The position numbers were made by a program, and so were the translations under genes. Below, piece by piece: positions 51,747 to 64,000 of a stretch of DNA of 64,000 nt; positions within the stretch are counted from its first letter, which is position 1; each line of letters starts with the position of its first letter. The notes beneath the pieces are model-generated. The model made no database searches. It was given only the letters and a program-made list of their open reading frames with translations, and was not told the origin of the DNA. The DNA is from an uncultured Anaerolineae bacterium. GTDB lineage: Bacteria > Chloroflexota > Anaerolineae > Anaerolineales > Villigracilaceae. The stretch lies in NCBI GenBank assembly GCA_903875215.1, contig CAIQVH010000031.1, positions 496,001-560,000 of the forward strand, in the 5' to 3' direction.

Positions 51747-54419
51747 CTAGTCTTTGTACTTCCTGAAATTAAATATAAGTTCGCCAAATGATTTCGGATC
51801 ATACTTTTCAAATTCATCTTCTTCAACAAAAACATAATCAAAGCGGATTTTATTATGCGTTGCGTTTATATCTTCACACCATTTCTTCAGACGTTCCATC
51901 TTGAGAGGAACGTCCAAATCTTCAAGCCCTTTGGTTTCGACAATCCAAATTTCTTTCGGACTTGTTTTTACAATAAAATCGGGATAGTAATTTGAAATAT
52001 TCCCATCGGCATTGATGTAATCAATACGGAAATTCACAGCGAAATAGTTCTTAGCGTAGGAAATTACATCATTACATTTTTCGAGGAATGATGCGAACAA
52101 TAATTCAAGGTGGCTGTCTCCAACAATTTTATTGAAAACGCTTTTCTGCGCCATAAGATAACCTTGCTCTTTGACCACGAACGGGCGGGTTTGCCTGAGC
52201 TTGATAGTGTCGCGTATCTCGGCGCTGCCCTTGTCCTGGACGGTCAAATCATTGATTTTCTTCTTGAAAGTTTCGATAATCGTCTTGCTGGCTTCCAGTT
52301 CGGAAAGATTGCGGATGGTGTTCAGATTATCAATATCCACAATCGTAGTGAACAGGTGTTGCGTGATAAATTCCTTGACTTTGCCATATAGCACATCATA
52401 CCCGCTAAAAAGGCGCAAGTCTTTCATAATAACCTGGGTAAAGTAACCAATCACGCTCCGATAATCTGTCACGGCGGCAGAATCAAGATAAGTGCTGTGA
52501 TTGATTTCGCCCGTTGTAATGTCCTTGAAAATAATCTCTCGCATTTCCTTTTCAGAAAATTGCCTGTATATGATTTTCTTGTTGCCAAAGGCAGCGGGCG
52601 CAAGGTCTTCAAGTCGTTTATATTCGCGGTAAATGCGCGGCGTCAGCACTGGGATTTCAATATCGAGTTTATCTACATCTTTTTTGGTGTTTTCATTATC
52701 CACTTCGATAATGATGGGCGCGTGCGCGGCGGTGCCTGTTCCCATTGGTTTGCGTTCCAGTTGTACGCCTTCGCTTTTGATGGATTCGACAAAATCCATA
52801 AAGGCTTCTGTGCCAACCACGCTGACATACTCGGTGCCGTCTGCGCCAGGATACATGCGGCGTAAACCGCGCCCCAATGTTTGTTCGGGAAGAATATTGC
52901 TTTTTGAAGCATACGCCCGCAAACCGACAATCGTTGTCACGTTGCGCACGTCCCAACCTTCTTTGAGCATCAACACGGAAACAATCACTTTGTAGGGACT
53001 GTCCCAGGTGTCAATTTGATTGGACTCTTTACGCAGTTTTTCCAGTTCTTCTTTGCTTTTCTTGGCGTCCGATTCTGAAATTTCGCCGTTGTTGTTGGTA
53101 TGAATGACCAACACGGCATCTTTAAATTCGGGATAGGTGCTTTCCAGGTATTCAGCAACATCGTCACAGTTCTTGGTATCATCCGTCATCACAAATAAAA
53201 CGGCTTTCTTGCCAAGTTTCTCATGTTCTGGATACACCTTACGCCATTCTTCCACGCCCAGGTGAATGTAATCGGCATAATGTTCGGTGTACTTTGAACT
53301 CTTGCGTTCCACCAGTTTGGCGCGGCTGGCAAAATCGGGCAGGATGGGATGTTTGACCACATTCTGGACAATGGCTTCCACCAGCGGATAATCGCACACG
53401 GTTTGCACAAAGATTGCGCCGTTATTGTGTTTCGGCGTGGCGGTCACATCCAACTGAATGGAAAGGAAATGGTCTTTTTGTTTCAGGCGGTTGTGAATAT
53501 CTTGAATTGACTTGAACCATGCCAGGCGGCTATCATGGATGTGATGGGCTTCATCGTTGATTACCACCAGTTCGTCAATCTCACGCACAATCATGCCCAA
53601 ATCCACTTTAGATTCATTGGTTTTGCCGGTGGGACGTTTGCCAAGAAAATAATCTTCGAGATTATCGTCATCAAAGCTTGGTTCGGTTTCATTCCCCGCA
53701 TAAACCCGATGAATATTGGTCAGGAACAGGTTGCCCGTTTTGCGGACAATGGAAACATCATCCTGGATATGCAAGGTCATCTGGAAATCATCCTGCCAGT
53801 TTTGACCTTCATATCCGTTATCGGGTAAAAGCGGGTCTTGAAAGAAAATTTTCAAGCCATCAAAATCGGTTCGTAAGCGGTCAAGTACGATGATGTTGGG
53901 GGCAATCAATAAAAAGTTCGTGGCAAGCTGCGAATCTTCTTCGTAAAGTTTGTGGAAGTAACACCATGTAATGAAAAGACTCATCACTTTTGTCTTTCCG
54001 CTTCCTGTTGCCATCTTTACCACAAGCCTGAGCCATTCTTCATCGAACATGCCTGTTGAAACTGCTCCCGATGAATCATAACGCATCAGGTCGTATTTGT
54101 CTTTGACCTGGGCCACTTCATACAGATAAATTACCGTTTCAACAGATTCGCGTTGGGCAAAATAATATTGAAATTCTTTCAGATCTTCGCGGATGTGCTG
54201 ACAGTTGAACCACCAATTTAATAAGGCTTTGCTGGTTGCGCTTGCCCCTTCGTATTGATTCTTGCGCCATGTTTTTACTTCCCTGCGAATTTTATTGACC
54301 AAGGGCGGAACAAGTTTGTCATAGGCGGAATCGCGCAAATCTTCATCGGCGGGGAACCAACGATGTTCGGGGTTGAGGATTTCATAAGGCGAGGTAGGGA
54401 AGGCGGGATGGATTGCCAT
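51747..54419 (-). CDS. type III restriction enzyme, Res (helicase-nuclease) subunit
   Basis: 890 residues, a superfamily 2 helicase with nuclease. Walker A is VKMATGSGKTKVM (about 135-147), the DEAH box is VINDEAHHIHD (289-292), motif III-like VTATPKHNNG follows, and motif VI reads QTLGRGLRRMYPG. Near the C-terminus YYPDFIV and IWIVETKG give the PD-(D/E)xK nuclease residues. In type III systems Res works only with the Mod subunit and cuts about 25 nt from the site. Mod is encoded upstream on the same strand, with one extra gene between. Composition is visibly more AT-rich than the core genes around it, consistent with transfer. Confidence 0.92.
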   Translation of the reverse strand: MAIHPAFPTSPYEILNPEHRWFPADEDLRDSAYDKLVPPLVNKIRREVKTWRKNQYEGASATSKALLNWWFNCQHIREDLKEFQYYFAQRESVETVIYLYEVAQVKDKYDLMRYDSSGAVSTGMFDEEWLRLVVKMATGSGKTKVMSLFITWCYFHKLYEEDSQLATNFLLIAPNIIVLDRLRTDFDGLKIFFQDPLLPDNGYEGQNWQDDFQMTLHIQDDVSIVRKTGNLFLTNIHRVYAGNETEPSFDDDNLEDYFLGKRPTGKTNESKVDLGMIVREIDELVVINDEAHHIHDSRLAWFKSIQDIHNRLKQKDHFLSIQLDVTATPKHNNGAIFVQTVCDYPLVEAIVQNVVKHPILPDFASRAKLVERKSSKYTEHYADYIHLGVEEWRKVYPEHEKLGKKAVLFVMTDDTKNCDDVAEYLESTYPEFKDAVLVIHTNNNGEISESDAKKSKEELEKLRKESNQIDTWDSPYKVIVSVLMLKEGWDVRNVTTIVGLRAYASKSNILPEQTLGRGLRRMYPGADGTEYVSVVGTEAFMDFVESIKSEGVQLERKPMGTGTAAHAPIIIEVDNENTKKDVDKLDIEIPVLTPRIYREYKRLEDLAPAAFGNKKIIYRQFSEKEMREIIFKDITTGEINHSTYLDSAAVTDYRSVIGYFTQVIMKDLRLFSGYDVLYGKVKEFITQHLFTTIVDIDNLNTIRNLSELEASKTIIETFKKKINDLTVQDKGSAEIRDTIKLRQTRPFVVKEQGYLMAQKSVFNKIVGDSHLELLFASFLEKCNDVISYAKNYFAVNFRIDYINADGNISNYYPDFIVKTSPKEIWIVETKGLEDLDVPLKMERLKKWCEDINATHNKIRFDYVFVEEDEFEKYDPKSFGELIFNFRKYKD

Positions 54420-54440
54420 GTGTTCTCCAATTTAGGTAAA

Positions 54441-54500
54441 CCGTCCAGGAATGCTCCACGAATAAACCAATGAGAGTCGCCTATTCGAGTATTCGCGGTC
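54441..54500. repeat. degenerate copy of the palindromic CCACGAAT/ATTCGTGG repeat
   Basis: The res-side gap resembles the mod-side repeats: CCGTCCAGGAAT, CCACGAAT, GAGTCGCCTATTCG and ATTCGCGGTC occur in the same order as in the second mod-side unit, but the palindrome is eroded. Judged by eye. Confidence 0.4.
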
Positions 54501-54519
54501 TGTTGCGGGAATGGTCTTG

Positions 54520-54957
54520 TTACTTCTTAATCGCGTTATCTCTTCCAATTCTCTGAACCGGTTTCATATCCTTGCCAGGGAAGACGCGCCGATATTCAAG
54601 TTGCCTACGCCCAAAATTGAAAAGCAGTCCGACGGACGCGCCAGTGGCTTTGAGGTAGTTGATGACTTGCGCCAGTTCATCATTCGTCAATTGGTGGCTG
54701 AACGCTTTGACTTCCACAACAACCTGCTGATTGGGAAACAGGTCTAAATAAAACGTGGCAACCCGTTCTCCTTCAAAATCAACAAAGACTTCAAATTGAC
54801 GGAATGGCTCGATGCCCGCATGGTTGAGTTTGACTTCCAACGCCTTTTCGTACACTTCTTCTTTGAAACCATAACCAATTTCATTGTGGACTTCCATTGC
54901 CAGGCCAATGAGTTTATAGGTCAGGTTGTTGCCAGTAGCGTCTGTGACAAGTGGCAT
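54520..54957 (-). CDS. GxxExxY family protein
   Basis: 145 residues with the naming motif GFKEEVYEKAL (G-x-x-E-x-x-Y) near residue 30, then FVDFEGERVATFYLDLF and VVVEVKAFSHQL, which resembles the D-(E/Q)xK core of PD-(D/E)xK nucleases, and the conserved ATGASVGLLFNFGRRQLEYRRV end. The family is widespread in environmental bacteria, often in many copies, with no established role. Here it sits between mod and res, in the same direction, so it would be co-transcribed with the R-M system. Palindromic repeats lie on its upstream side and a worn copy on the other. Confidence 0.92.
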   Translation of the reverse strand: MPLVTDATGNNLTYKLIGLAMEVHNEIGYGFKEEVYEKALEVKLNHAGIEPFRQFEVFVDFEGERVATFYLDLFPNQQVVVEVKAFSHQLTNDELAQVINYLKATGASVGLLFNFGRRQLEYRRVFPGKDMKPVQRIGRDNAIKK

Positions 54958-54980
54958 AGATTTTTCCTTTCAGGGGCCAC

Positions 54981-55135
54981 CCATCCACGAATTTATCACG
55001 AATTCACGAATACATACCGCCCATTCGCGCATTCGTGGATGGTTTTTCCCGCACAACCCATCCACGAATATTTCACGAAAACGAGAATGCGAGTCTTCAA
55101 TTCGCAAATTCGTGGTCTCATTCGTGGACGGTTTT
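54981..55135. repeat. two tandem ~77-bp palindromic units
   Basis: Unit 1 (54981-55057) and unit 2 (55058-55135). Each opens with CCATCCACGAAT and closes with ATTCGTGGATGG or ATTCGTGGACGG, i.e. 12-bp terminal inverted repeats (12/12 and 11/12), followed by TTTTTCCCG or TTTTTCACG. The middles are rich in further CACGAA/TTCG words. No ORF of note. Confidence 0.8.
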
Positions 55136-55144
55136 TCACGGGCT

Positions 55145-57373
55145 TCACTTCCCTACCATCACATCCAATATCTTCATCGTGTCGTTGCCAAAAATATCCA
55201 CCACTTTGACGGCTATCTTGCGCCTTCCTGCGGGGACTTCATGCGGCGGGGTTTTCAGTTCAAGGGCGCGGTCTTTCTTGGTGCGGAAGGACTGCCATTC
55301 ATTCTCGAAGATAAAATCACCTGTCCATTTTTCTTCCATTTCGCCGCTGGCTTCATCTTTCATGCGCACAATCTCGCGCTTGTTCTCGAAGTCAAAATCC
55401 ACCGCCCAATAATCAATCCAGTCCGTCCACTTTTTGGTGAGAATTTCGCGGGTAACAATGCCCGCCTTGTCTTTTGAGACTTTGATGATTTTGCCGCCTT
55501 CAACCACAATTTTATTTGCGCCTTCCTTCAGGCTGGTCGCGGCGCTTTCAACCGAATCCTGTGAATAGAATACCGAAAAATCGGTCAATTCAACTGCCAC
55601 GCTGCCCTTATTGACAATGGGCTTGACTTCGATATAGGAAACATCGTGAAAGACCACCTGGTTCTTTTCGATGGCGCGTTTATCGAAGACTTCACGCGGA
55701 ATGTATTTGAGCGCCAGGTCAATCCCTTTGGACTTGGCTTCTTCCTGCACATTAGGGAACAGCCCCATTTCAAACTCGAAGGCCAGAATATCCACGCGGG
55801 AAATGCGTTTTTCACGGCACTCTAAAATAATTTCTTCCACAAACAGGCGGGTAACGGGCAAATTGACCGAACCCACCGCCACCATGCGCCCGGATTTCTT
55901 GCCATGAAAAGTGCGCAGGTTTTCAACCACTTCGGCTTTATAGGCGCGCAAAATCAGCGCAATAAAATCCTTTTCGCGTTGTATCAATTGCTGCCTTTGT
56001 TCTTCTTCCCGCAGGTTCAAATTGACGCCGATATAATGCGCCCGCTCGTACTTGCCCAGGTTGAGAATCTCGAAGGCGCGAAAATCCTTGCCTGCCGCTT
56101 TCAGTTCGCGCTGCACGCCGATCAGACGCTTGCGCGTGGTGTGAATGGCAAACTTGCCCAAGTCCGAACCAATCCATTTACGGTTGAGTTTTTCGGCAAC
56201 GGCTAAGGTGGTGCCAGAACCACAGAAGAAATCAGCGACAATATCATTTTCGTTGGATGAGGCATTGATAATGCGTTCAACCAGGATTTCTGGCTTTTGA
56301 GTATCGTACCCCAATCTCTCTATTGATGATGTAGTCAAGGCTTTTATGCCCCAAACGTCATCAACTGCCTTGCCTTCGATCATTACATCTTTGAGATAAC
56401 GTTTTACTGTATTTCTCCCATCAGCCCAGACAAACTGCCCATTATTGTCAGTCTTTATACTTTGCTTTCTGTTAGCAATATATTCTTTAAGTAAATCAAC
56501 CAGATAAACTTTTGAACCATTTTCCAAGACAAAATCGCCATTATTATCTTTCCTTACTTCAAGATTCTTCAACTCGCTGATAGTTTTGTCTGGTATCCAA
56601 GATTCGGATATTGCCTGATAATTCCATTTCTCATTGTTTTTTGTGTAAAAGAAAATAGTGTCGTGTTTTCTGCTAAACTGTTGATTGTCTGCTCTACGCC
56701 AACCACTGTAACTCCAAATAATTTCATTACGAAAATTATCTTTTCCAAAAATCTCATCTAATGATAAACGCAAATATGAACTAACTCGCCAATCGCAATG
56801 GACAAAAATACTTCCATCTTCTGCAAGTAAATCACGCATGATAACCAAGCGTTCGTAAATCATGGCGATGAAACTGTCTGCGCCTTTGCCCCAGGTATCA
56901 CGGTAGGCCAGTTCTTCCAGTACATTGGGGCGTTTGGTGAAGGTATCGTCACCGATTTCTATATCCATTGAAAAATCTGCGCCCACATCGAAAGGCGGGT
57001 CAATGTAAATCAGTTTAATGCCGCCGTTCTTTTCAATCTCTTCACGCATTGCGCCATTTTTCAAAGACGAAAGAATTAACTTGTTATCGCCCCAAATGAG
57101 TTTGTTTGTCCAGCCACTTTTTTGCCTTCCGCGTGTGTCGAACATAGACATTTGCAAAGCAGAGTCTTCTAATTTCTCGGCGCGTGGCTCGTCCACTTGC
57201 TCGATGACTTGAAAAGGCAAAACGATATTTGTAACTTCGTTACTTTTGCCATTCCAAATCAATTCCACTTCGCGCTTATCGTCAAACAGCAGGAAGCGGT
57301 ATTTATCCGGCAGGGGCCGGTCGTGTTCGAGCAGTCTCAAGATTTCGCGTTTTTCGTTGTCGGTAAGTTTCAT
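55145..57373 (-). CDS. type III DNA methyltransferase, Mod subunit
   Basis: 742 residues from the ATG at 57373; the longer frame to 57553 is not family-like. Beta-class adenine methyltransferase order: catalytic motif [13 protein letters not shown] (DPPF at 125-128) first, then the SAM-binding motif [28 protein letters not shown] near residue 385. Between them (about 205-360) lies the target-recognition region, encoded by DNA clearly richer in A+T (about 56290-56760) than both sides. The C-terminal 300 residues interact with Res in this class. It methylates adenine within an asymmetric 5-6-bp site and also guides cleavage by Res. The site cannot be predicted. Confidence 0.93.
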
Positions 57374-57488
57374 AATTTTCCAATTGATCCAACCAGGATA
57401 GCAAGGTAGGGACGATTTACGGTGCCAGCGCGGGGCGGGCCTATTCCCCAAAAAGAACCGGGCCGCTTTGGGGGCAAAACTACTGGCT

Positions 57489-58181
57489 TCAATCAACCAG
57501 GTGCCCAAGGGTATAACAATACACGTTACGCTCTTCCGCCAACTTCTTTTCAAAAAGTAAAATTTTCTGGATTATTTCTTCCGGTTGTTTCTCCAAACCA
57601 GCCAGGCAGCTCTTCACCGCCGCATCAAACCATTCACTTCTCCGCAAGACGTCCGCCAGGATCGCTTCCTGAACGCCATCCCCTTCTGCAAATTCATCCC
57701 CGTTTTTCTGAGCCAAAATAAACAACTCAGTCGCGCGTTGTCGACACAAGCTGGATGTCTCCATTTTCTTGCGCACATCAGTCTTCTGGTAATTTTCCCA
57801 GCTATCATCACAAGCCCATGCCGCACTCAGGGCCGCCCACCCTGCCGCGCCATAAACGCCCTGGGCTTCCAAAATCATGGCCCGGCATAAGAAACGATTG
57901 GCGAGCCTGGGAAAGGAGCGCTTCTTAAGTTGTTTTCGATACTCGGGCGAGAGAACAATCTTGCGAACCGCTTCCGCTTCCCCGCCTTCTTCAAGACTCT
58001 CTGCGCAATACCCGCATTTCGGGCATTCTCTAACCCACATCTCCATGGTCGAGCGCCGCATTTCCGGCGGGCGCGTATCCAGGTCAGAAAACCCCATGGC
58101 ATTCGTGGACCCTATTTCGGCATGGCTGCTGACGGTTCCACAAACCAGGCATTGTTCGGTAATCTCAAAAATGGTGGTCAT
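57489..58181 (-). CDS. DUF2225-like zinc-ribbon protein
   Basis: 230 residues. Two cysteine pairs, CLVCGT (about 11-14) and [10 protein letters not shown] (about 53-59), form a likely zinc site. They are followed by a helical part with [17 protein letters not shown] and [14 protein letters not shown], resembling TPR-like helices. The plan matches DUF2225 proteins, of unknown function. The start follows a GGAG. It is near the R-M system but has host-like base composition, so it may be part of the older chromosome. A promoter candidate lies about 225 nt upstream. Confidence 0.8.
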
Positions 58182-58389
58182 AATTTTCCCTTTCTCCTTT
58201 TATGTGATAGCGGAACGACCGTGTGATCCAGAACTTTTCCATGTCAGCACCCGCGCCGGGGGCGGATATGGAAAACCTGCCGAGAGAAACGCTCTACATT
58301 GGGGAAACAACGCTAAATCAAGGGCAAAATTACACAGCGTAAACCAATAAAAATCCCGCGCTGTGGGCAGGCTGTGGGGTCAGCCCGCC

Positions 58390-58433
58390 GGGGTGAACAC
58401 CCCTATTATAGCGGATGGATGCTCTACAGGCAA
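58390..58433 (-). promoter_or_regulatory. promoter with an inverted repeat at the start site
   Basis: Minus strand: TTGCCT (58433-58428), 17-bp spacer, TATAAT (58410-58405), then at once GGGGTG-TT-CACCCC (58403-58390). The repeat covers the predicted transcription start and could be an operator. It points to the DUF2225-like gene. Nothing else is seen between 58182 and 58389. Confidence 0.45.
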
Positions 58434-58503
58434 CGCACCCGCCAACAAGCCAGCGATTCCAAATCTGAACCCAGGCCCTTGTCAGCAGGTACGCAAAGTA
58501 CGT

Positions 58504-58671
58504 GGCAGGAAAGACATTTTACGGGGTAGGAAAGACATTTTACGCGGTAGCAGACACATTTTACGCGGTAGGAAAGACATTTTACGCAGTAGGAAAGACA
58601 TCTTACGCGGTAGCAGACACATTTTACGCGGTAGCAGACACATTTTACGGGGTAGCAGACACATTTTACGG
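58504..58671. repeat. eight-copy 21-bp tandem array with two unit types
   Basis: Eight head-to-tail 21-bp units. All share a GGTA-like start and a CATTTTACG-type end; the middle is either GGAAAGA (type A) or GCAGACA (type B). Order on the plus strand is A A B A A B B B. Because 21 is a multiple of three, several frames stay open through it, giving spurious proteins. There are no spacers between units. After it, up to 58764, no gene is seen. Confidence 0.9.
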
Positions 58672-58764
58672 GGTAATAGTCCCCGTTCTTGAGTTTAGAG
58701 TTGGTTTTTTAGAGCTTAAGCAGCGATCAACTTCCTTTTCCGGCCTGTAAGGAATAGTTGGGGC

Positions 58765-58890
58765 TTACGAGAATCTGGCCCGGCTTGCGCGAATTGCGTC
58801 AAGAATATCTGCTTTAGAAATAGGAAGGTTTATGCTTCGCACTTCGAACGGCGAAGTCTTTTGGATGCGTTCCTAAGAATAATTCGTCAT
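58765..58890 (-). pseudogene. small 41-codon ORF with an in-frame amber stop
   Basis: From an ATG at 58890 that overlaps the stop of the PIN remnant (ATGA) the frame reads MTNYS, then TAG, then 35 further codons ending at TAA (58767-58765). The part after the amber looks coding (VRSINLPISKADILDAIRAS). It resembles the tail of a small toxin-antitoxin-type gene; not identified further. The single stop suggests recent inactivation. Confidence 0.4.
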
Positions 58891-59126
58891 AGGTGCACCC
58901 AAAGAAGTTGAATGCCTTCTTGTTTGGAAATGTCAAGCATATTTTGGTCAAGCGAAATTAACGGAAGATTATGCTCGATAGCAGTAAGGGATTTGAATGG
59001 GGAAATCAATTTTCAGGGTCTGAATTGCTTCCGCAAAAAGCTCCGCCGTGTTGCCCAGCAAGCAGAGAGCCGCTTTGTGATAAACCGCCAGTCTGCAGAT
59101 TGGGCCAACACCACCACGCGATTCAT
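58887..59126 (-). pseudogene. frameshifted remnant of a PIN-domain protein
   Basis: The last 34 codons read LTAIEHNLPLISLDQNMLDI and end in IQLLWVHL, matching the C-terminal part of VapC-type PIN nucleases (late Asp and the final strand). Upstream the coding signal (HKAALCLLGNTAELFAEAI) continues in another frame, so a frameshift near 58990 breaks the gene, and the N-terminal half with the first acidic residues is missing. It overlaps the stop of the GIY-YIG-like gene. By-eye family call. Confidence 0.5.
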
Positions 59127-59644
59127 ACCGCGCCTCGCGCCTGATCCTGCTCCTCCAGGGCCTGTCTCAAGCGGCGGGTCTGTTCAATCTGCACAGCGCG
59201 CTGCGCTTCGCGCACCAACGCCGGTAAACTGCGCCGCCGCCGGAAGGGCGCATTGGCCGGGAGATACACCTGCGGAAGAGCGTGGGGCTGGCTGTTGAGC
59301 GCCACGTTAAAACAGGGCGCCCAACGCTGAATCAACCAGCGCTCCGCCGCGCTGACCTCGTTCCCAACCGCCGCGAAGCTCTCCGCTTGCGAACTGAACA
59401 ATTCCAGGCTGAAATTCATCGAGGCCGGCCAGTTGACCCACACAAAGCGCCCCACCATCGAATGGCCTTTATATCCGCCCAGCAAATGCTCCCACACCCG
59501 CCCAAATGCCAGCTGCGACTGCCCGACATAAAACACCACTTCCGCATCCCGCAGCAGGTACAAATCCAGGCTCTGCCACTCCGCCGGGCACTCCGGAACC
59601 AGCAAAAACTGCTTAAGAGAAATCACCATCGCCGGCACGCTCAT
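59123..59644 (-). CDS. GIY-YIG nuclease-like protein
   Basis: 173 residues. LDLYLLRDAEVVFYVGQSQ is read as the GIY...YIG strand pair, with a following Arg in GRVWEHLLGGY, and AERWLIQRWAPCFNVALN supplies the late Glu and Asn typical of the fold. The C-terminal 45 residues are basic and helical (RRRRSLPALVREAQRAV), possibly DNA-binding. No other domain, so it is a stand-alone member. It may start at the internal ATG at 59629. It is the first of a short decayed unit with the PIN remnant and the amber-containing ORF. Confidence 0.65.
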   Translation of the reverse strand: MSVPAMVISLKQFLLVPECPAEWQSLDLYLLRDAEVVFYVGQSQLAFGRVWEHLLGGYKGHSMVGRFVWVNWPASMNFSLELFSSQAESFAAVGNEVSAAERWLIQRWAPCFNVALNSQPHALPQVYLPANAPFRRRRSLPALVREAQRAVQIEQTRRLRQALEEQDQARGAV

Positions 59645-59697
59645 AACCCGATTTTATCGCGAAATGCCTGGTGATTTCGCGTCCTGTCCGTAAAACT

Positions 59698-59801
59698 CCC
59701 TCACCCTAACCCTCTTCCTTTTGGAGAGTGAATTGCCCCCTCTCCCCCCGGAAGAGGGAATTGCCCCCTCTCCCCCCGGGAGAGGGCAGGGGTGAGGGTA
59801 A
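59698..59801. repeat. compound intergenic repeat (CCCTCACCC...GGGTGAGGG)
   Basis: Ends are inverted (CCCTCACCC near 59698, GGGGTGAGGG near 59790). Inside, a 28-bp unit starting GAATTGCCCCCTCTCCCCCC occurs twice in tandem (59730 and 59758). Elements of this look are common between genes in environmental genomes. Just before it a GCGAAAT/ATTTCGC hairpin (59659-59680) is seen. Confidence 0.7.
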
Positions 59802-59906
59802 AAGTCTGCTCGATCCCAGTCAATCAGCCTTGCAAAACAGAAAAGACATCTTAACAAAATCTAAACATTTATTAAGTAAGATAGCGACATGTTGAAAGGA
59901 CTACCG

Positions 59907-61304
59907 ATGAAACCCAAATCTTTATACCTTGTGAGCTTGTTCGTTTTATTGTCCCTCCTGGCCGGCGCCTGCGCCCCGGCCGCCCAGCCAGCCCAGGCCG
60001 CCCAGGCCCCTGCCGGGCAATCCCAGCCAGCCAGCACCGCCGCGCTTGAACCGACCCTGGCGCCCTCCCTGCCGCAAACTACGCCCGCCGCAGTCACCCT
60101 CACCCCGGCCACCCAAAAACAGAAAAAACAGCCCGGCGAAAAAATGCCGACCGGCCCCGGTTCCTTCACCATGGAACAAACCCTTTCCGATAAAGCCCAG
60201 GAAATGACCATCGCCTTCGACGGCCTGGCCTTCCTGACCGGCAACCTCGGCTCCGACTCGTTCTTCCCGCCCGGCAAAGTGGCCGATTTCTGGGGCTTCC
60301 AATACCTGCGGGATAATGACCCCAGCGAGATGGGCCACAACACCGACTTCCTGACCCTGGCCTCGCTCAACATGTTCAGCATCCTCACCAGCCAGCAGAA
60401 AACCCAACTGGCCGATCTCGCCCGCAGCCAGGTCGCATCGATCAACGACTACGGCTACAAACGCTTCGTCCTGATGACCGCCTTCCGCCGCCTGCTGGAT
60501 GGCGACCTGCCGGCCGGAACCAGCGGCCTGAACGAGGAAGCCGTCCGCGCCCTCTCAGCCGAAATGTACCGTCTCGACGGCCAGATCAGCCTCGAACGCG
60601 CCCAGGTCATGGGCAATATCCTGTACAACCTGAACGACGAACAAAAAGCCTACCTGGCCAAAATGGTCGGGCAAGGCATGACCAGCTGGCCGGTGGTGGA
60701 CGAACCGGTTGAACTGCGCCCGCTCTCGCGCGATGAGAAAATCGCCGTGATGACCTACTCCGGCGATCTGTTCAGCTGGTATGCCGGTTCCATCGAAGCG
60801 GATGTTTACTTCTGCCCCGAGCGCCACGGCACCTACTTCGGCTCCTTCTACATGAAAGACGCGCCCGCGGTTGGCAATCCCGGCTACAGCATCGGCACCA
60901 ACATCACCGCCGATATGGGCGATGCCTTTATCGCCGCGCTCAGCCCCGAACAGGCGCCGCTCATCACCGGCCTGGTCGACATCCAGCGCCCCTACCTGGA
61001 AGGCATCGTCGACGTGCGCACCCAGGTCTCCACCGAGCTGCGCCAAACCATCAGCGGCGGCAGCGTGGATAGCGCCAAGGTCCTCAGCCTGATGGAACAA
61101 TATGGCCAACTGGATGGCTCGCTCGTCTACAATTTTGCCACCAACTTTGCCAAAGTCGGCCAAACACTGACGGAAGCCCAAAAAGCCACCCTGATGGACC
61201 TGCGCCACCAGACCCTCGGCGATTACACACCCGATGCCGCCTACCTGTTCTCCGAACCCATCCCATTCCCCGACGTGCCGAATACCGATTTCCTGTTCAA
61301 ATAA
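59907..61304 (+). CDS. internally duplicated lipoprotein with four LTxxQ-like motifs
   Basis: 465 residues from the ATG at 59907, preceded by AAAGGA; an ATG 18 nt upstream is less well placed. Lipoprotein signal with Cys22 (LLAGAC). A Pro/Ala/Thr/Gln-rich linker with a lysine patch (about 23-88) leads to two homologous halves, about 95-252 and 273-432. Each half carries FWGFQYLRD or YFGSFYMKD, then two L(T/S/N)xxQ motifs: LTSQQ 160, LNDEQ 242, LSPEQ 345, LTEAQ 421. LTxxQ is the hallmark of Spy/CpxP periplasmic chaperones, but the rest is not clearly that family. Helical, surface-anchored; function unknown. First of three lipoprotein genes. Confidence 0.8.
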   Translation: MKPKSLYLVSLFVLLSLLAGACAPAAQPAQAAQAPAGQSQPASTAALEPTLAPSLPQTTPAAVTLTPATQKQKKQPGEKMPTGPGSFTMEQTLSDKAQEMTIAFDGLAFLTGNLGSDSFFPPGKVADFWGFQYLRDNDPSEMGHNTDFLTLASLNMFSILTSQQKTQLADLARSQVASINDYGYKRFVLMTAFRRLLDGDLPAGTSGLNEEAVRALSAEMYRLDGQISLERAQVMGNILYNLNDEQKAYLAKMVGQGMTSWPVVDEPVELRPLSRDEKIAVMTYSGDLFSWYAGSIEADVYFCPERHGTYFGSFYMKDAPAVGNPGYSIGTNITADMGDAFIAALSPEQAPLITGLVDIQRPYLEGIVDVRTQVSTELRQTISGGSVDSAKVLSLMEQYGQLDGSLVYNFATNFAKVGQTLTEAQKATLMDLRHQTLGDYTPDAAYLFSEPIPFPDVPNTDFLFK

Positions 61305-61312
61305 CCCCCCTG

Positions 61313-61349
61313 CCCCGGCCTCCAGCCCCTCTACGGCTGGAGGCCGGGG
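61313..61349 (+). promoter_or_regulatory. 15-bp perfect hairpin between lipoprotein genes
   Basis: CCCCGGCCTCCAGCC (61313-61327) and GGCTGGAGGCCGGGG (61335-61349), 7-nt loop, no T-run. It ends 15 nt before the next ATG, so it may limit or process the message between the two cistrons. Confidence 0.55.
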
Positions 61350-61364
61350 AGATAGGCCCAGCCC

Positions 61365-62939
61365 ATGAAACGAATCATCCTTTTATTGACCCTGATTGCC
61401 CTGCTGACCGCCTGCAGCGCAAACGCCCCGGCCGCCGAGCAACCCTCCGCGCCCCAAAACCCCGCGCCCGAAACGGCCCTCGCCTCCACGGCAGCAACCC
61501 TGCCCGAAGCCACGGCCACCGCCCCAGCCCTGACTCCAGCCGCCACCAAGAAACCCAAAAAAGGAGAGCCGACCGCCGCGCTGACCCCCGGCGCAGACGC
61601 CTCCACCTCCCAGGGTTCGAAAGAAAAAGGCCCCGCCCCCGCCGCGCCAACTTCCGCCAACCCGGCCTACCTCGCCACTGAAATCTCCGGGCGGCCAACG
61701 GCCAACGGCCTGACCCTCAACATCGTCCCGGCCGCCGAGATGCAAATCGTGATCGCCTACGGCACCGCCCCCGGCAACTACACCAGCCAGACCGCCCCCG
61801 CCACGCTGACGGCTAACACGCCCCATGAAATCGAACTGACCAACCTGACGCCGGACACCGCCTACTATTACAGCGTGCTCTCGAATGGCACGCCCGGCCC
61901 CGAACACAGCTTCCACACCGCGCGCGCCCCCGGCAGCGCCTTCACCTTCGAGATCCAAGGCGATTCGCATCCCGAGCGCACCAAGAACCAGTTCGACCCC
62001 GCGCTCTACACCCGCACCCTGAGCAGCGCCGCCGCCGACCAGCCCGATTTTTACATCGCCATCGGCGACGATTTCAGCGTCGATACGCTCAAAAACGTCA
62101 ACGCCGAAACGGTGCGCGCGCTGTACATCAACCAGCGCCAATGGCTGGGCCTGGTCGATGCGCCGGTTTTCCTGGTCAATGGCAACCACGAACAGGCCTC
62201 GCTCGCCAACCTGAACAACACAGCCGAAAACGTCGCCGTCTGGGCACAGACTTCGCGCAACGCCTACTATCCCCAGCCCGCGCCGGATGCCTTCTACAGC
62301 GGCGACAGCGAACCGGTTGAATTTATCGGCCCGCTGCGCGATTACTACGCCTTCACCTGGGGTGACGCGCTCTTCGTCGTGATCGACCCCTACTGGCACT
62401 CCCCGCAAACCGTCGACAACCAGTTTGGCGCCGACCGCACCAACGACAAGAAAAACCGCGACATGTGGAACACCACCCTCGGCGACGCCCAATACCAGTG
62501 GTTCAAGCAAACCCTCGAAACCAGCAGCGCAAAATACAAGTTCGTTTTCACCCATCATGTGCTCGGCTCCGGGCGCGGCGGCATCGAAATGGCCAACTCC
62601 TTCGAGTGGGGTGACGCCGCCAATCTCGCCGCGCACCGCCCCGGCTGGGATAAAACCATCCACCAGCTGATGGTGGACAACGGCGTGACCATCTTCTTCC
62701 AGGGCCACGATCACATCTTCGCCCGCCAGGAACTGGATGGAGTCATTTACCAGTCTTTGCCTGAACCCGCCAATCCCTTCTACAGCTGGGAAAACGAAGA
62801 CGCCTACAAAACCGGCGACAAATTCCCCAACAGCGGGCGCGTGCGTGTCAGCGTCGCGCCGGGCGGCGTCACGGTAGACTACGTCCGCTCCTATCTCGAC
62901 AAGCCCGACGAAGTGGCCTTCACCTACACCCTGCCCTAA
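61365..62939 (+). CDS. metallophosphoesterase lipoprotein with FN3-like domain
   Basis: 524 residues. Lipoprotein signal with Cys17 (LLTAC), then a Pro/Ala/Thr linker with a KKPKKGEP patch (about 18-98), an FN3-like domain (about 105-187; NLTPDTAYYYSVLSNGTPGPEHSF), and a calcineurin-like phosphoesterase domain. Metal ligands: GDSH (Asp200, His202), GDD (Asp235), GNHE (Asn274, His275), THH (397-398) and GHDH (447-450), so the site is complete. The FN3-plus-phosphoesterase plan is that of purple-acid-phosphatase-like enzymes. It is expected to be anchored outside the membrane and to release phosphate from an unknown ester. A paralogue follows after 13 nt. Confidence 0.9.
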   Translation: MKRIILLLTLIALLTACSANAPAAEQPSAPQNPAPETALASTAATLPEATATAPALTPAATKKPKKGEPTAALTPGADASTSQGSKEKGPAPAAPTSANPAYLATEISGRPTANGLTLNIVPAAEMQIVIAYGTAPGNYTSQTAPATLTANTPHEIELTNLTPDTAYYYSVLSNGTPGPEHSFHTARAPGSAFTFEIQGDSHPERTKNQFDPALYTRTLSSAAADQPDFYIAIGDDFSVDTLKNVNAETVRALYINQRQWLGLVDAPVFLVNGNHEQASLANLNNTAENVAVWAQTSRNAYYPQPAPDAFYSGDSEPVEFIGPLRDYYAFTWGDALFVVIDPYWHSPQTVDNQFGADRTNDKKNRDMWNTTLGDAQYQWFKQTLETSSAKYKFVFTHHVLGSGRGGIEMANSFEWGDAANLAAHRPGWDKTIHQLMVDNGVTIFFQGHDHIFARQELDGVIYQSLPEPANPFYSWENEDAYKTGDKFPNSGRVRVSVAPGGVTVDYVRSYLDKPDEVAFTYTLP

Positions 62940-62952
62940 CATTGGATAACCC

Positions 62953-64000
62953 ATGAAAACACCCCGCTTTAGCCTGCTCCTGCCCCTGCTTATTTTGCTC
63001 GCCCTGGCCGTTTCCTGCGCCGCAGTCCCGGCGCAAGCCCCGCAAAGCCAGCCTGCCGCCAATCCCGCCCAAACCTCCCCCACGGCCAGCCTCGCCCCGG
63101 CCGAGGCCGGCACTGCCACCCCCGCGCCGCAAAAGACGCGCAACCCGAAAGGGCCCAAAGGAACCCCCGGCGCAAAAGGAACACCCGGCGCCAACAAAGG
63201 CACCCCCGGCGCGCAAGGCTCGCAGGGTTCGCAAGGCGCACAAGACCCGCAGGCCTTCCCAACCTCCTCGTATCGTCCCGTCACCGCCGACTTTAACCTG
63301 ATCCTGGGCCGCCCAACGAGCAATTCCATCGCCGCCAGCCTGTACGCCAAATCAGATCTGCAGATTACGCTGGCCTATGGCACCGCCCCCGGCGTGTACA
63401 GCACCCAGAGCAACCCGGTCAATCTCAAGGCCGGGGTTCCCCAGACCATCGAACTGACCAGCCTGGCGCCAGACACGGCTTACTACTACACCATCCTCAC
63501 CAATGGCGTGCCTTCCACCGAGCACAGCTTTCACACCGCCCGCCCGGCCGGCAGCAGCTTCACCTTCACCATAGACGCCGACCCGCACAACCGCGACCCG
63601 CGCTTCAGCGGCGAACTGTACGCCACCACGTTCGCCAACGTCCTGGCCGACCGCCCCGACTTTCACATCAACCTGGGCGACACCTTCATGACTGAAAAAG
63701 TCCAGGCGCGCAGCTACGCCGTGGCCGAAAGCACCTTCACCGACATGCGTCCCTACTTCGGTCTGCTCGGCGCGGATGTGCCGCTGTTCCTCGTCAACGG
63801 CAACCACGAAGGCGAGCTCGGCTGGCTGGTCACCAGCGCACAGGATAAAGACCTGCCGGTCTGGACAACGCAATTGCGCGAGCTTTACTACCCCAACCCC
63901 GTTCCCAACGGTTTCTACACCGGCGCTGCCAGCACCGATAGCGCCCTCAACGCCCCGCGTGACGGCTACTTCGCCTGGAGCTGGGGCGACGCCCAATTCA
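62953..64000 (+). CDS. metallophosphoesterase lipoprotein with collagen-like linker (3' end outside window)
   Basis: Open from the ATG at 62953 to the window edge (349 codons). Lipoprotein signal with Cys22 (LAVSC). The linker contains a Gly-x-y stretch (about residues 67-97, GPKGTPGAKGTPGAN and onward) of about ten triplets with one slip, collagen-like. Then an FN3-like domain (SLAPDTAYYYTILTNGVPSTEHSF) and the start of a phosphoesterase domain with DPH, LGDT and GNHE; the later His motifs fall beyond the window. Clearly a paralogue of the gene before it, and in the same operon. No stop is seen in the window. Confidence 0.88.
   Translation, partial: MKTPRFSLLLPLLILLALAVSCAAVPAQAPQSQPAANPAQTSPTASLAPAEAGTATPAPQKTRNPKGPKGTPGAKGTPGANKGTPGAQGSQGSQGAQDPQAFPTSSYRPVTADFNLILGRPTSNSIAASLYAKSDLQITLAYGTAPGVYSTQSNPVNLKAGVPQTIELTSLAPDTAYYYTILTNGVPSTEHSFHTARPAGSSFTFTIDADPHNRDPRFSGELYATTFANVLADRPDFHINLGDTFMTEKVQARSYAVAESTFTDMRPYFGLLGADVPLFLVNGNHEGELGWLVTSAQDKDLPVWTTQLRELYYPNPVPNGFYTGAASTDSALNAPRDGYFAWSWGDAQF

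Follow-up and report, generated by a model that had tools for sequence, protein, structure and literature searches.

Gene Organization at the Locus

The DNA analyzed here is a 64,000-nucleotide stretch (the window) of the 3.77-Mb genome of an uncultured Anaerolineae bacterium (G000:C31:496001-560000), which toward its 3′ end encodes three consecutive lipoproteins on the same strand, namely a protein with tandem LTXXQ (CpxP/Spy-like) domains, referred to below as the LTXXQ protein, and two metallophosphoesterases (MPE1 and MPE2; Table 1). The operon runs past the end of the window, and reading onward in the same genome gave genes for a response regulator and a histidine kinase, in line with an earlier reading of this DNA (the original prediction), which had suggested that further members might lie there. 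The five genes are separated, in order, by gaps of 60, 13, 34, and −4 bp, the regulator and kinase genes overlapping by 4 bp. With a probability that we put at roughly 0.5, the three lipoprotein genes open a five-gene unit in a dedicated two-component regulon for surface proteins. What sequence analysis could establish for this proposal is the gene order, the intact metal-site motifs of the phosphoesterases, the duplication in the LTXXQ protein, the co-occurrence of the genes, their neighborhood across phyla, and a conserved direct repeat with an 11-bp period. The module is a real, non-random set of surface proteins and is made of known kinds of parts. No description of it was found in the literature searched, from which most subscription journals are absent, in keeping with the original suggestion that the system was undescribed.

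Table 1. Features of the lipoprotein operon (L035, locus of the same genome extending beyond the window; residues are those of the fragment starting at 60147).
Feature	Coordinates	Strand or location	Remarks
Direct repeat CTTAACA-aaat-CTAAACA, 11-bp period	59850..59867	+	21 bases 5′ of the first possible start (59889) of the LTXXQ gene
LTXXQ lipoprotein gene, tandem LTXXQ (CpxP/Spy-like) domains	59907..61304	+	465 aa; alternative start 59889
First repeat of LTXXQ protein	60195..60674	+	Residues 17-176; hhalign of halves
Conserved loop 1, FFPPGKVADFWGFQYLRDND	60261..60320	+	Half one; conservation across 77 rows
Second repeat of LTXXQ protein	60741..61211	+	Residues 199-355; hhalign of halves
Conserved loop 2, DVYFCPERHGTYFGSFYMKD	60801..60860	+	Half two; conservation across 77 rows
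MPE1 lipoprotein gene, FN3/PAP-N-like domain and metallophosphoesterase	61365..62939	+	524 aa; metal-site motifs intact
MPE2 paralogous lipoprotein phosphoesterase, short Gly-x-y linker	62953..64000, onward past window	+	541 aa complete, L035:3953-5578
OmpR/PhoB-type response regulator gene	L035:5613-6302	Beyond window, 3′ of MPE2	
HAMP/HisKA histidine kinase gene	L035:6299-7645	Beyond window, 3′ of regulator gene	

All three lipoproteins have at their N-terminus a signal peptide and a lipobox Cys, as judged by eye (that of MPE1 also matches Pfam LPAM_1), followed by a Pro/Ala/Thr linker with a basic patch. This common plan was part of the original prediction and is present, but it is not peculiar to these three genes, since weak matches (E 0.005 to 6.6) to the signal and linker part of the LTXXQ protein occur at 12 further places in the genome, one being the MPE1 gene. 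The genome contains three copies of the LTXXQ gene, two of them on a different contig. Counts of promoter-like consensus sites (0 vs. 1.7 expected) and terminator-like sites (11 vs. 9.1 expected) were uninformative.

The Duplicated LTXXQ Protein

The LTXXQ protein is a tandem duplication of ~385 aa. Its two halves, as profiles built from a 77-row family alignment, align by hhalign over 152 columns with a probability of 98.5 and an E of 2.1e-15, vs. 0.19 for the reversed control, so that the internal duplication read from the window holds (a relative with X residues, L087, was left out of the conservation alignment, and L120 was also left out of some family comparisons). The protein had been thought to belong to no known family, which is ruled out by its match to Pfam LTXXQ (PF07813), where the whole protein scores 25.4 bits and the fragment 28.0 against a cut-off of 24.3. 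The score is under the cut-off in several relatives; 70 of 76 family rows match PF07813 at E ≤ 1, and 26 match Metal_resist (PF13801). The four LTxxQ-like motifs reported earlier were found, two of them exact (LTSQQ at residues 80-84 and LTEAQ at 341-345) and two approximate (LNDEQ at 162-166 and LSPEQ at 265-269), and the positions kept in ≥97% of the 77 rows include L80, Q84, Q166, L265, and Q269. The AlphaFold model is nearly all helical, with a mean predicted local distance difference test (pLDDT) of 95.1 and a predicted template modeling score (pTM) of 0.93, and its first two motifs are separated by long helices (residues 82-118 and 130-160); a model of half of the protein has a pLDDT of 84.8.

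A nearly invariant loop precedes each LTXXQ hairpin and is a new feature of the domain, the two loops being aligned to one another in the comparison of the halves. Across phyla the family retains ~50% identity, and of the 70 positions with the highest conservation (≥97%), 41 lie in residues 32-68 and 202-258, which make up 94 of 385 residues (hypergeometric P ~7e-12, to be read with the fact that these ranges were picked after the conservation was known). Ten residues (K44, D47, Q52, R55, D56, H64, D219, E225, R226, and K237) are invariant in 77/77 rows and C223 is kept in 75.

Comparison of the whole model with the PDB gave no Foldseek match at E ≤ 0.001, the best match (VIA Z 5.0) being an unrelated transporter; these searches with the whole model matched no enzyme, and no solved relative was found by sequence profile (best E 1.8). 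The half-model also gave no Foldseek match at E ≤ 0.001, and its second-look ranking was headed by ZraP (Z 6.4), with NccX (Z 6.1) and CnrX (Z 6.0) in the first five ranks (Z 6.4 to 5.9), CpxP at rank 9 (Z 5.8), and Spy at rank 21 (Z 5.3), all values being below 8. This ranking accords with the Pfam result and is insufficient as proof by itself because unrelated helical proteins tie with these rows. Judged by sequence, each half resembles the LTXXQ domain of CpxP, Spy, ZraP, and CnrX with an extra conserved loop in front. What the protein has in common with this superfamily (PF07813, PF13801) are the LTXXQ motifs, the helical hairpin, an extracytoplasmic location and, often, proximity to a two-component system or one of the extracytoplasmic function (ECF) sigma factor type. 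It differs in being a duplicated protein rather than a single small domain, in the additional loop of each hairpin, and in being lipid-anchored, strongly conserved across phyla, and accompanied by phosphoesterases, PEBP proteins, and sulfotransferases.

The Paired Phosphoesterases

MPE1 and MPE2 are 46% identical and both consist of a PAP-N-like (FN3-like) N-domain, for which the score of MPE2 is under the cut-off, and a Metallophos core, so their earlier description as paralogous FN3-type phosphoesterases holds. The two were aligned with their neighborhood relatives of more than 350 aa, open reading frames (ORFs) tagged as sulfotransferases being excluded, to give 52 sequences. Four motifs (D-x-H, GD, GNH, and H) show no variation among the 52, and GHDH is present in 51, the remaining row having a gap. 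The FN3-like N-domain and metallophosphoesterase core are shared with purple acid and PhoD-like phosphatases. Purple acid phosphatases have a Tyr metal ligand after GDx, and the equivalent position here is Phe in 51 sequences and Ile in one. Because the metal motifs are invariant and the Tyr is replaced throughout, MPE1 and MPE2 should be catalytically active enzymes, and they were rejected as purple acid phosphatases. Pfam PhoD scores are 30.2 bits for MPE1 and 25.8 for MPE2 (cut-off 27), and MPE1 has no sequence match in the PDB at E ≤ 0.01.

The collagen-like Gly-x-y linker to which attention had been drawn is present in MPE2, but it is weak, scoring 18 bits against the Pfam Collagen cut-off of 27.2. 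The longest unbroken run is five triplets, compared with six in the nearest orthologue, five in L070, four in L090, and fewer in the other rows shown. As a functional feature it was rejected, runs of five to six triplets being confined to MPE2, its nearest orthologue, and L070.

Co-occurrence and Gene Neighborhood

The co-occurrence of the genes was examined in 101 genomes, comprising that of the window and its relatives, with strong matches taken at E ≤ 1e-100 for LTXXQ and E ≤ 1e-10 for MPE. LTXXQ is present in seven genomes and MPE in the same seven and one more (8/101, or one of the remaining 94), for which a hypergeometric probability of ~5e-10 was calculated by hand over genomes that are related. 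Seven further genomes, which matched only or mainly in the signal and linker part (query residues 4-124), were not counted as LTXXQ-positive. The original prediction was to fail if the LTXXQ protein belonged to a known family with another role and did not co-occur with the phosphoesterases; the family is known in broad terms and the co-occurrence is strong.

A scan of GTDB contigs gave 321 LTXXQ relatives, from which 77 loci were retained, and the counts that follow refer to these and the window (78 loci). In same-strand runs with LTXXQ, MPE is found at 34 loci, PEBP at 29, the Lcl_C core at 21, a response regulator at 17, SMP-30 at 14, a histidine kinase at 11, and arylsulfotransferase and FGE-like genes at eight each. 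The offset of MPE from the LTXXQ gene is +1 in 22 cases, +2 in 15, +3 in seven, and +4 in five, with none at +5 to +7. Within seven genes of LTXXQ, a YkcB-type family-39 glycosyltransferase (GT39) is found at 6/78 loci, a kinase at 31/78, and a regulator at 39/78, the last two being abundant in genomes generally. According to the record titles, which may be wrong for metagenome bins, MPE lies in the LTXXQ run in Chloroflexota, Bacteroidota, Planctomycetota, Methanobacteriota, Caldifarciminota, Bacillota, Ignavibacteriota, and Actinomycetota, and also in three bins, two of them titled “delta” and one with no phylum given. A cultured example is Clostridium magnum DSM 2767, in which genes for regulator, kinase, GT2, GtrA, GT39, LTXXQ, MPE, a small protein, and MPE are consecutive.

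The module members look extracytoplasmic or membrane-bound, the exceptions being the regulator and the kinase’s cytoplasmic portion. Besides the lipoboxes recognized by eye, surface display is indicated by fusion to an SLH domain at one locus (L038) and by Por secretion tails on the sulfotransferases of two others (L106 and L118). The Lcl_C counts are for the core alone, as a broader “LCL” tag fell inside 25 LTXXQ proteins through a shared 45-residue Cys module. This module, PP-EA--AC-GK----C-F----G---GTC-------L-C-P, is common to LTXXQ, Lcl_C, and GT39 proteins (for example at L037:8661-10241, L037:13669-15294, and L069:6194-8392), has no Pfam match in the proteins scanned, and is possibly a shared surface domain. 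A connection to diversity-generating retroelements through Lcl_C and FGE led nowhere, a search for YADD, YMDD, and YVDD strings giving eight ORFs, two of which are sulfotransferases. At one locus, from a Desulfocapsa assembly (L094:5923-10508), apparent TolC, HlyD-type adaptor, and MacB efflux genes follow the LTXXQ gene.

The LTXXQ family is patchy, occurring in 5/400 genomes of the phylum. Its tree mixes phyla with strong support. C. magnum and another clostridial assembly fall in one clade (100/100) with two loci from Chloroheliaceae and two assemblies from Omnitrophota, and a pair with the same support (100/100) joins an archaeal assembly, of Methanofastidiosum, to one of Thermoflexales. 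Horizontal transfer is the simplest reading, and mis-binning may account for single cases. A single plasmid record, from Ca. Chlorohelix allophototropha, has two LTXXQ places, the better of which adjoins genes for a YbhB-type PEBP and a family-39 glycosyltransferase. On this plasmid (L134:854-21787) the LTXXQ gene is also near lgt, for lipoprotein lipidation, and a sulfur-metabolism block. A viral origin was rejected, as none of 26 pattern matches in viral contigs was a relative by tblastn.

A Direct Repeat Upstream of Module Genes

The repeat upstream of the LTXXQ gene belongs to a box with the consensus CTDAACA-N4-CTDAACA (CTDAACANNNNCTDAACA). Exact matches to CTDAACANNNNCTDAACA occur at only two places in the genome of the window, upstream of the LTXXQ gene of the operon and of an LTXXQ paralogue. 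With up to one mismatch there are six places, vs. three for the reversed control, and five of the six are directly upstream of the three LTXXQ genes, an SMP-30/PEBP gene, and a YkcB-type glycosyltransferase gene, the sixth falling within the coding region of an unrelated gene. One of the six places had served for motif discovery, and four of the other five precede module genes. The product of the glycosyltransferase gene, on contig C19, is by its Pfam scores a YkcB-type GT39 (PMT_2 114.3 bits, cut-off 26.1; YkcB_C 67.6, cut-off 27).

When 114 upstream regions of the 78 loci were scored, the best repeats came from Chloroflexota loci. These are on the coding strand and in most cases 20-80 bp ahead of the called start; two high-scoring repeats fall just inside the called ORF, the start of which may be called too early. 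Box-like repeats also precede solo LTXXQ genes that have no adjoining kinase. In 12 genomes of the same family as the window there are 19 exact matches, vs. three for the reversed pattern, and for 18 of these a module gene starts no more than 150 bp downstream. Profiles tagged 17 of the genes, and the other, for an Lcl-type lipoprotein, was recognized by eye; the exception (in G001) is ahead of what by eye is an arginase-like ORF. Regulator genes are among those preceded by an exact match (G023 and G034), and in G008 a regulator gene has a copy with one mismatch. The seven LTXXQ genomes contain 60 places at ≤1 mismatch, of which 22 precede module genes and seven others were inspected, 31 lying outside this set, so module promoters number at least 22.

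Six genomes that lack LTXXQ, among them one with MPE (G055), contain two exact matches. In five LTXXQ-less genomes with a close relative of the kinase, the box (0-1 mismatch) precedes Lcl_C, SMP-30, YkcB-type GT39, or regulator genes, and also a lipoprotein gene adjoining GT39. Because of these sites, the wider regulon would comprise the two-component system, the glycosyltransferase, and Lcl_C and SMP-30 lipoproteins, and the LTXXQ protein and phosphoesterases seem to be present in it in some genomes only.

Proposed Regulon and Alternative Explanations

The histidine kinase aligns over its full length with BaeS (276.8 bits, E 3e-82; equivalog cut-off 500) and scores 182.4 bits with PhoR, and the regulator is matched best by PhoB/MtrA-type models, under their cut-offs, with BaeR at 190.6 (cut-off 380). 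The BaeSR and CpxAR envelope stress responses of E. coli include spy. The present system is like them in combining a BaeS-like kinase and an OmpR-type regulator, predicted here to exert control, with a Spy-type protein, but it differs in that both regulatory proteins are under the equivalog cut-offs and the putative regulon consists of surface lipoproteins and a glycosyltransferase. In the proposed mechanism, the kinase would sense a change at the envelope and the OmpR/PhoB-type regulator would bind the repeat, inducing a set of surface proteins, which would include the LTXXQ lipoprotein (three copies), the phosphoesterases, the SMP-30/PEBP lipoprotein, and the YkcB-type membrane glycosyltransferase. 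The glycosyltransferase might add sugars to surface acceptors, possibly the Thr/Pro-rich linkers of the lipoproteins, and the phosphoesterases, and elsewhere the arylsulfotransferases, could take phosphate or sulfate groups off surface glycans or lipids or exchange these groups. With its duplicated structure, the LTXXQ protein may hold a ligand or client of the surface layer with its two conserved loops, as Spy/CpxP-type proteins do. Such a system would operate like the Bae/Cpx envelope response with its Spy-type member, with contents and a duplicated protein of its own. In this view the module would probably serve to remodel glycans or lipids of the surface by means of sugar, phosphate, and sulfate groups. 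More tentatively, and at less than even odds, the module can be viewed as a horizontally spread surface-modification system, in which a duplicated Spy-fold protein with a pseudo-symmetric, nearly invariant binding site would be the conserved core. Around it, phosphoesterases, sulfotransferases, PEBP/SMP-30 proteins, and a YkcB glycosyltransferase would add or strip phosphate, sulfate, and sugar groups at the surface, controlled by a two-component system of its own with its DNA box.

A partial parallel is the YrkPQ two-component regulon of B. subtilis, which includes YkcB/YkcC (PMC10128005), for which a 2021 review gave the function of YkcBC as unknown (PMC8035078). This too is a two-component system controlling a YkcB-type PMT_2 glycosyltransferase, comparable to the gene row in C. 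magnum, but the available parts of these two papers mention no LTXXQ or phosphoesterase partner.

Several results weigh against a dedicated regulon. MPE is absent from the run at 44/78 loci and solo LTXXQ genes exist (L048 and L057). Close relatives of the kinase occur in 44/101 genomes, 37 of which have no LTXXQ, so the sensor is not module-specific, and it was rejected as a module marker. In six relatives the box with up to one mismatch is found at 54 places, vs. 61 for the reversed control; as this is no excess, total counts at this threshold were rejected as evidence, and the box evidence is positional, relying on exact matches and their positions. Nor are all box sites in relatives independent of the motif’s discovery, as several come from contigs that had been inspected at that stage. 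In the genome of the window, the Lcl_C gene is without a box (at best four mismatches, on the opposite strand) and the regulator gene has none with fewer than five mismatches. Outside Chloroflexota no box was found, all scores of ≥12/14 among the 114 upstream regions being at Chloroflexota loci. In addition, the half-model Z values of 5-6 are in the range of chance matches among helical proteins.

The LTXXQ lipoprotein could instead be an accessory sensor that, located outside the membrane like CpxP or CnrX, binds metal or misfolded protein by its loops and restrains the kinase, or in other phyla a sigma/anti-sigma pair, until a signal arrives. The CpxP/ZraP/CnrX-like Pfam matches and fold hints point in this direction, as do the kinase and regulator genes near LTXXQ, though both kinds are abundant, and the invariant His64 and near-invariant Cys223 could bind metal. 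At two loci (L099 and L106), moreover, genes for ECF-sigma-like (by eye), anti-sigma-like, and short LTXXQ/Metal_resist proteins adjoin the LTXXQ gene. Such a role is nevertheless on the unlikely side, given that five relatives have a close kinase relative and the box without any LTXXQ gene, that the genome of the window has three LTXXQ copies with two on another contig, and that the conservation across phyla seems above what would be expected for a regulator of changing kinases. It is rather unlikely that the protein is an enzyme or a dedicated ligand-binding core, with the pseudo-symmetric loops forming one pocket and the partners making or clearing the ligand. The concentration of conserved positions around the loops, the ten invariant residues, and the high-confidence structure model would fit such a core, but the fold searches with the whole model match no enzyme and the loop conservation may also be structural.

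The original prediction offered surface phosphate scavenging or envelope remodeling, and it is the second half of this guess that has become the likelier. Scavenging would mean that the phosphoesterases, controlled by a PhoB/PhoR-like system with a Pho-like box, release phosphate from organic esters on the outside of the cell. Pho boxes are heptamer direct repeats with an 11-bp period, a form that the present box shares, and the metal-site motifs are intact and the best match of the regulator is a PhoB model, under its cut-off. On the other side, the kinase is closer to BaeS than to PhoR; no phosphate-transport gene is among those preceded by a box (≤1 mismatch) in the genome, which are for glycosyltransferase, PEBP, and LTXXQ proteins, although the uptake genes themselves were not located; and 50 unclassified operon neighbors yielded 76 families, the 25 commonest of which include none for phosphate uptake. 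With five of the six boxes on surface-module genes, scavenging appears quite improbable. That the three lipoproteins are merely adjacent and have no common role, as the linker plan common among lipoproteins of this genome might suggest, is hardly credible in view of the phyletic co-occurrence, the neighborhood in many phyla, and the shared box. Under a dedicated regulon for surface proteins, orphan hypothetical lipoproteins would become members of a regulon with a predicted binding site, and YkcB-type glycosyltransferases would gain a set of co-regulated candidate acceptors. The locus also provides a duplicated form of the Spy/CpxP-type domain with a very conserved extra site, which apparently moved between phyla together with phosphoesterases.

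Surroundings of the Operon

A CCCTCTCCCCCCGGGAGAGGG-type hairpin that resembles a dispersed palindromic repeat is present in three 28-bp copies at 59710-59793, past the upstream minus-strand gene and ahead of the box. The 173-aa ORF at 59123-59644 (−) has no match in Pfam or NCBIfam at E ≤ 1 and by eye is reminiscent of GIY-YIG nucleases. A tandem array at 58499-58675, with 8.4 copies of a 21-bp unit (89% matches), is open in one frame, which reads as GKTFYAV-like repeats. The G+C content in 52001-60000 falls to 46-49% around an N6/N4 DNA methylase gene (55145-57553, −), and this stretch may be a restriction-modification island next to the operon. About 5 kb 3′ of the kinase gene, past a SpoIIE-phosphatase gene, is a run of STAS-like and HATPase-like genes (L035:12711-19782) resembling a cluster of the stressosome/Rsb type.

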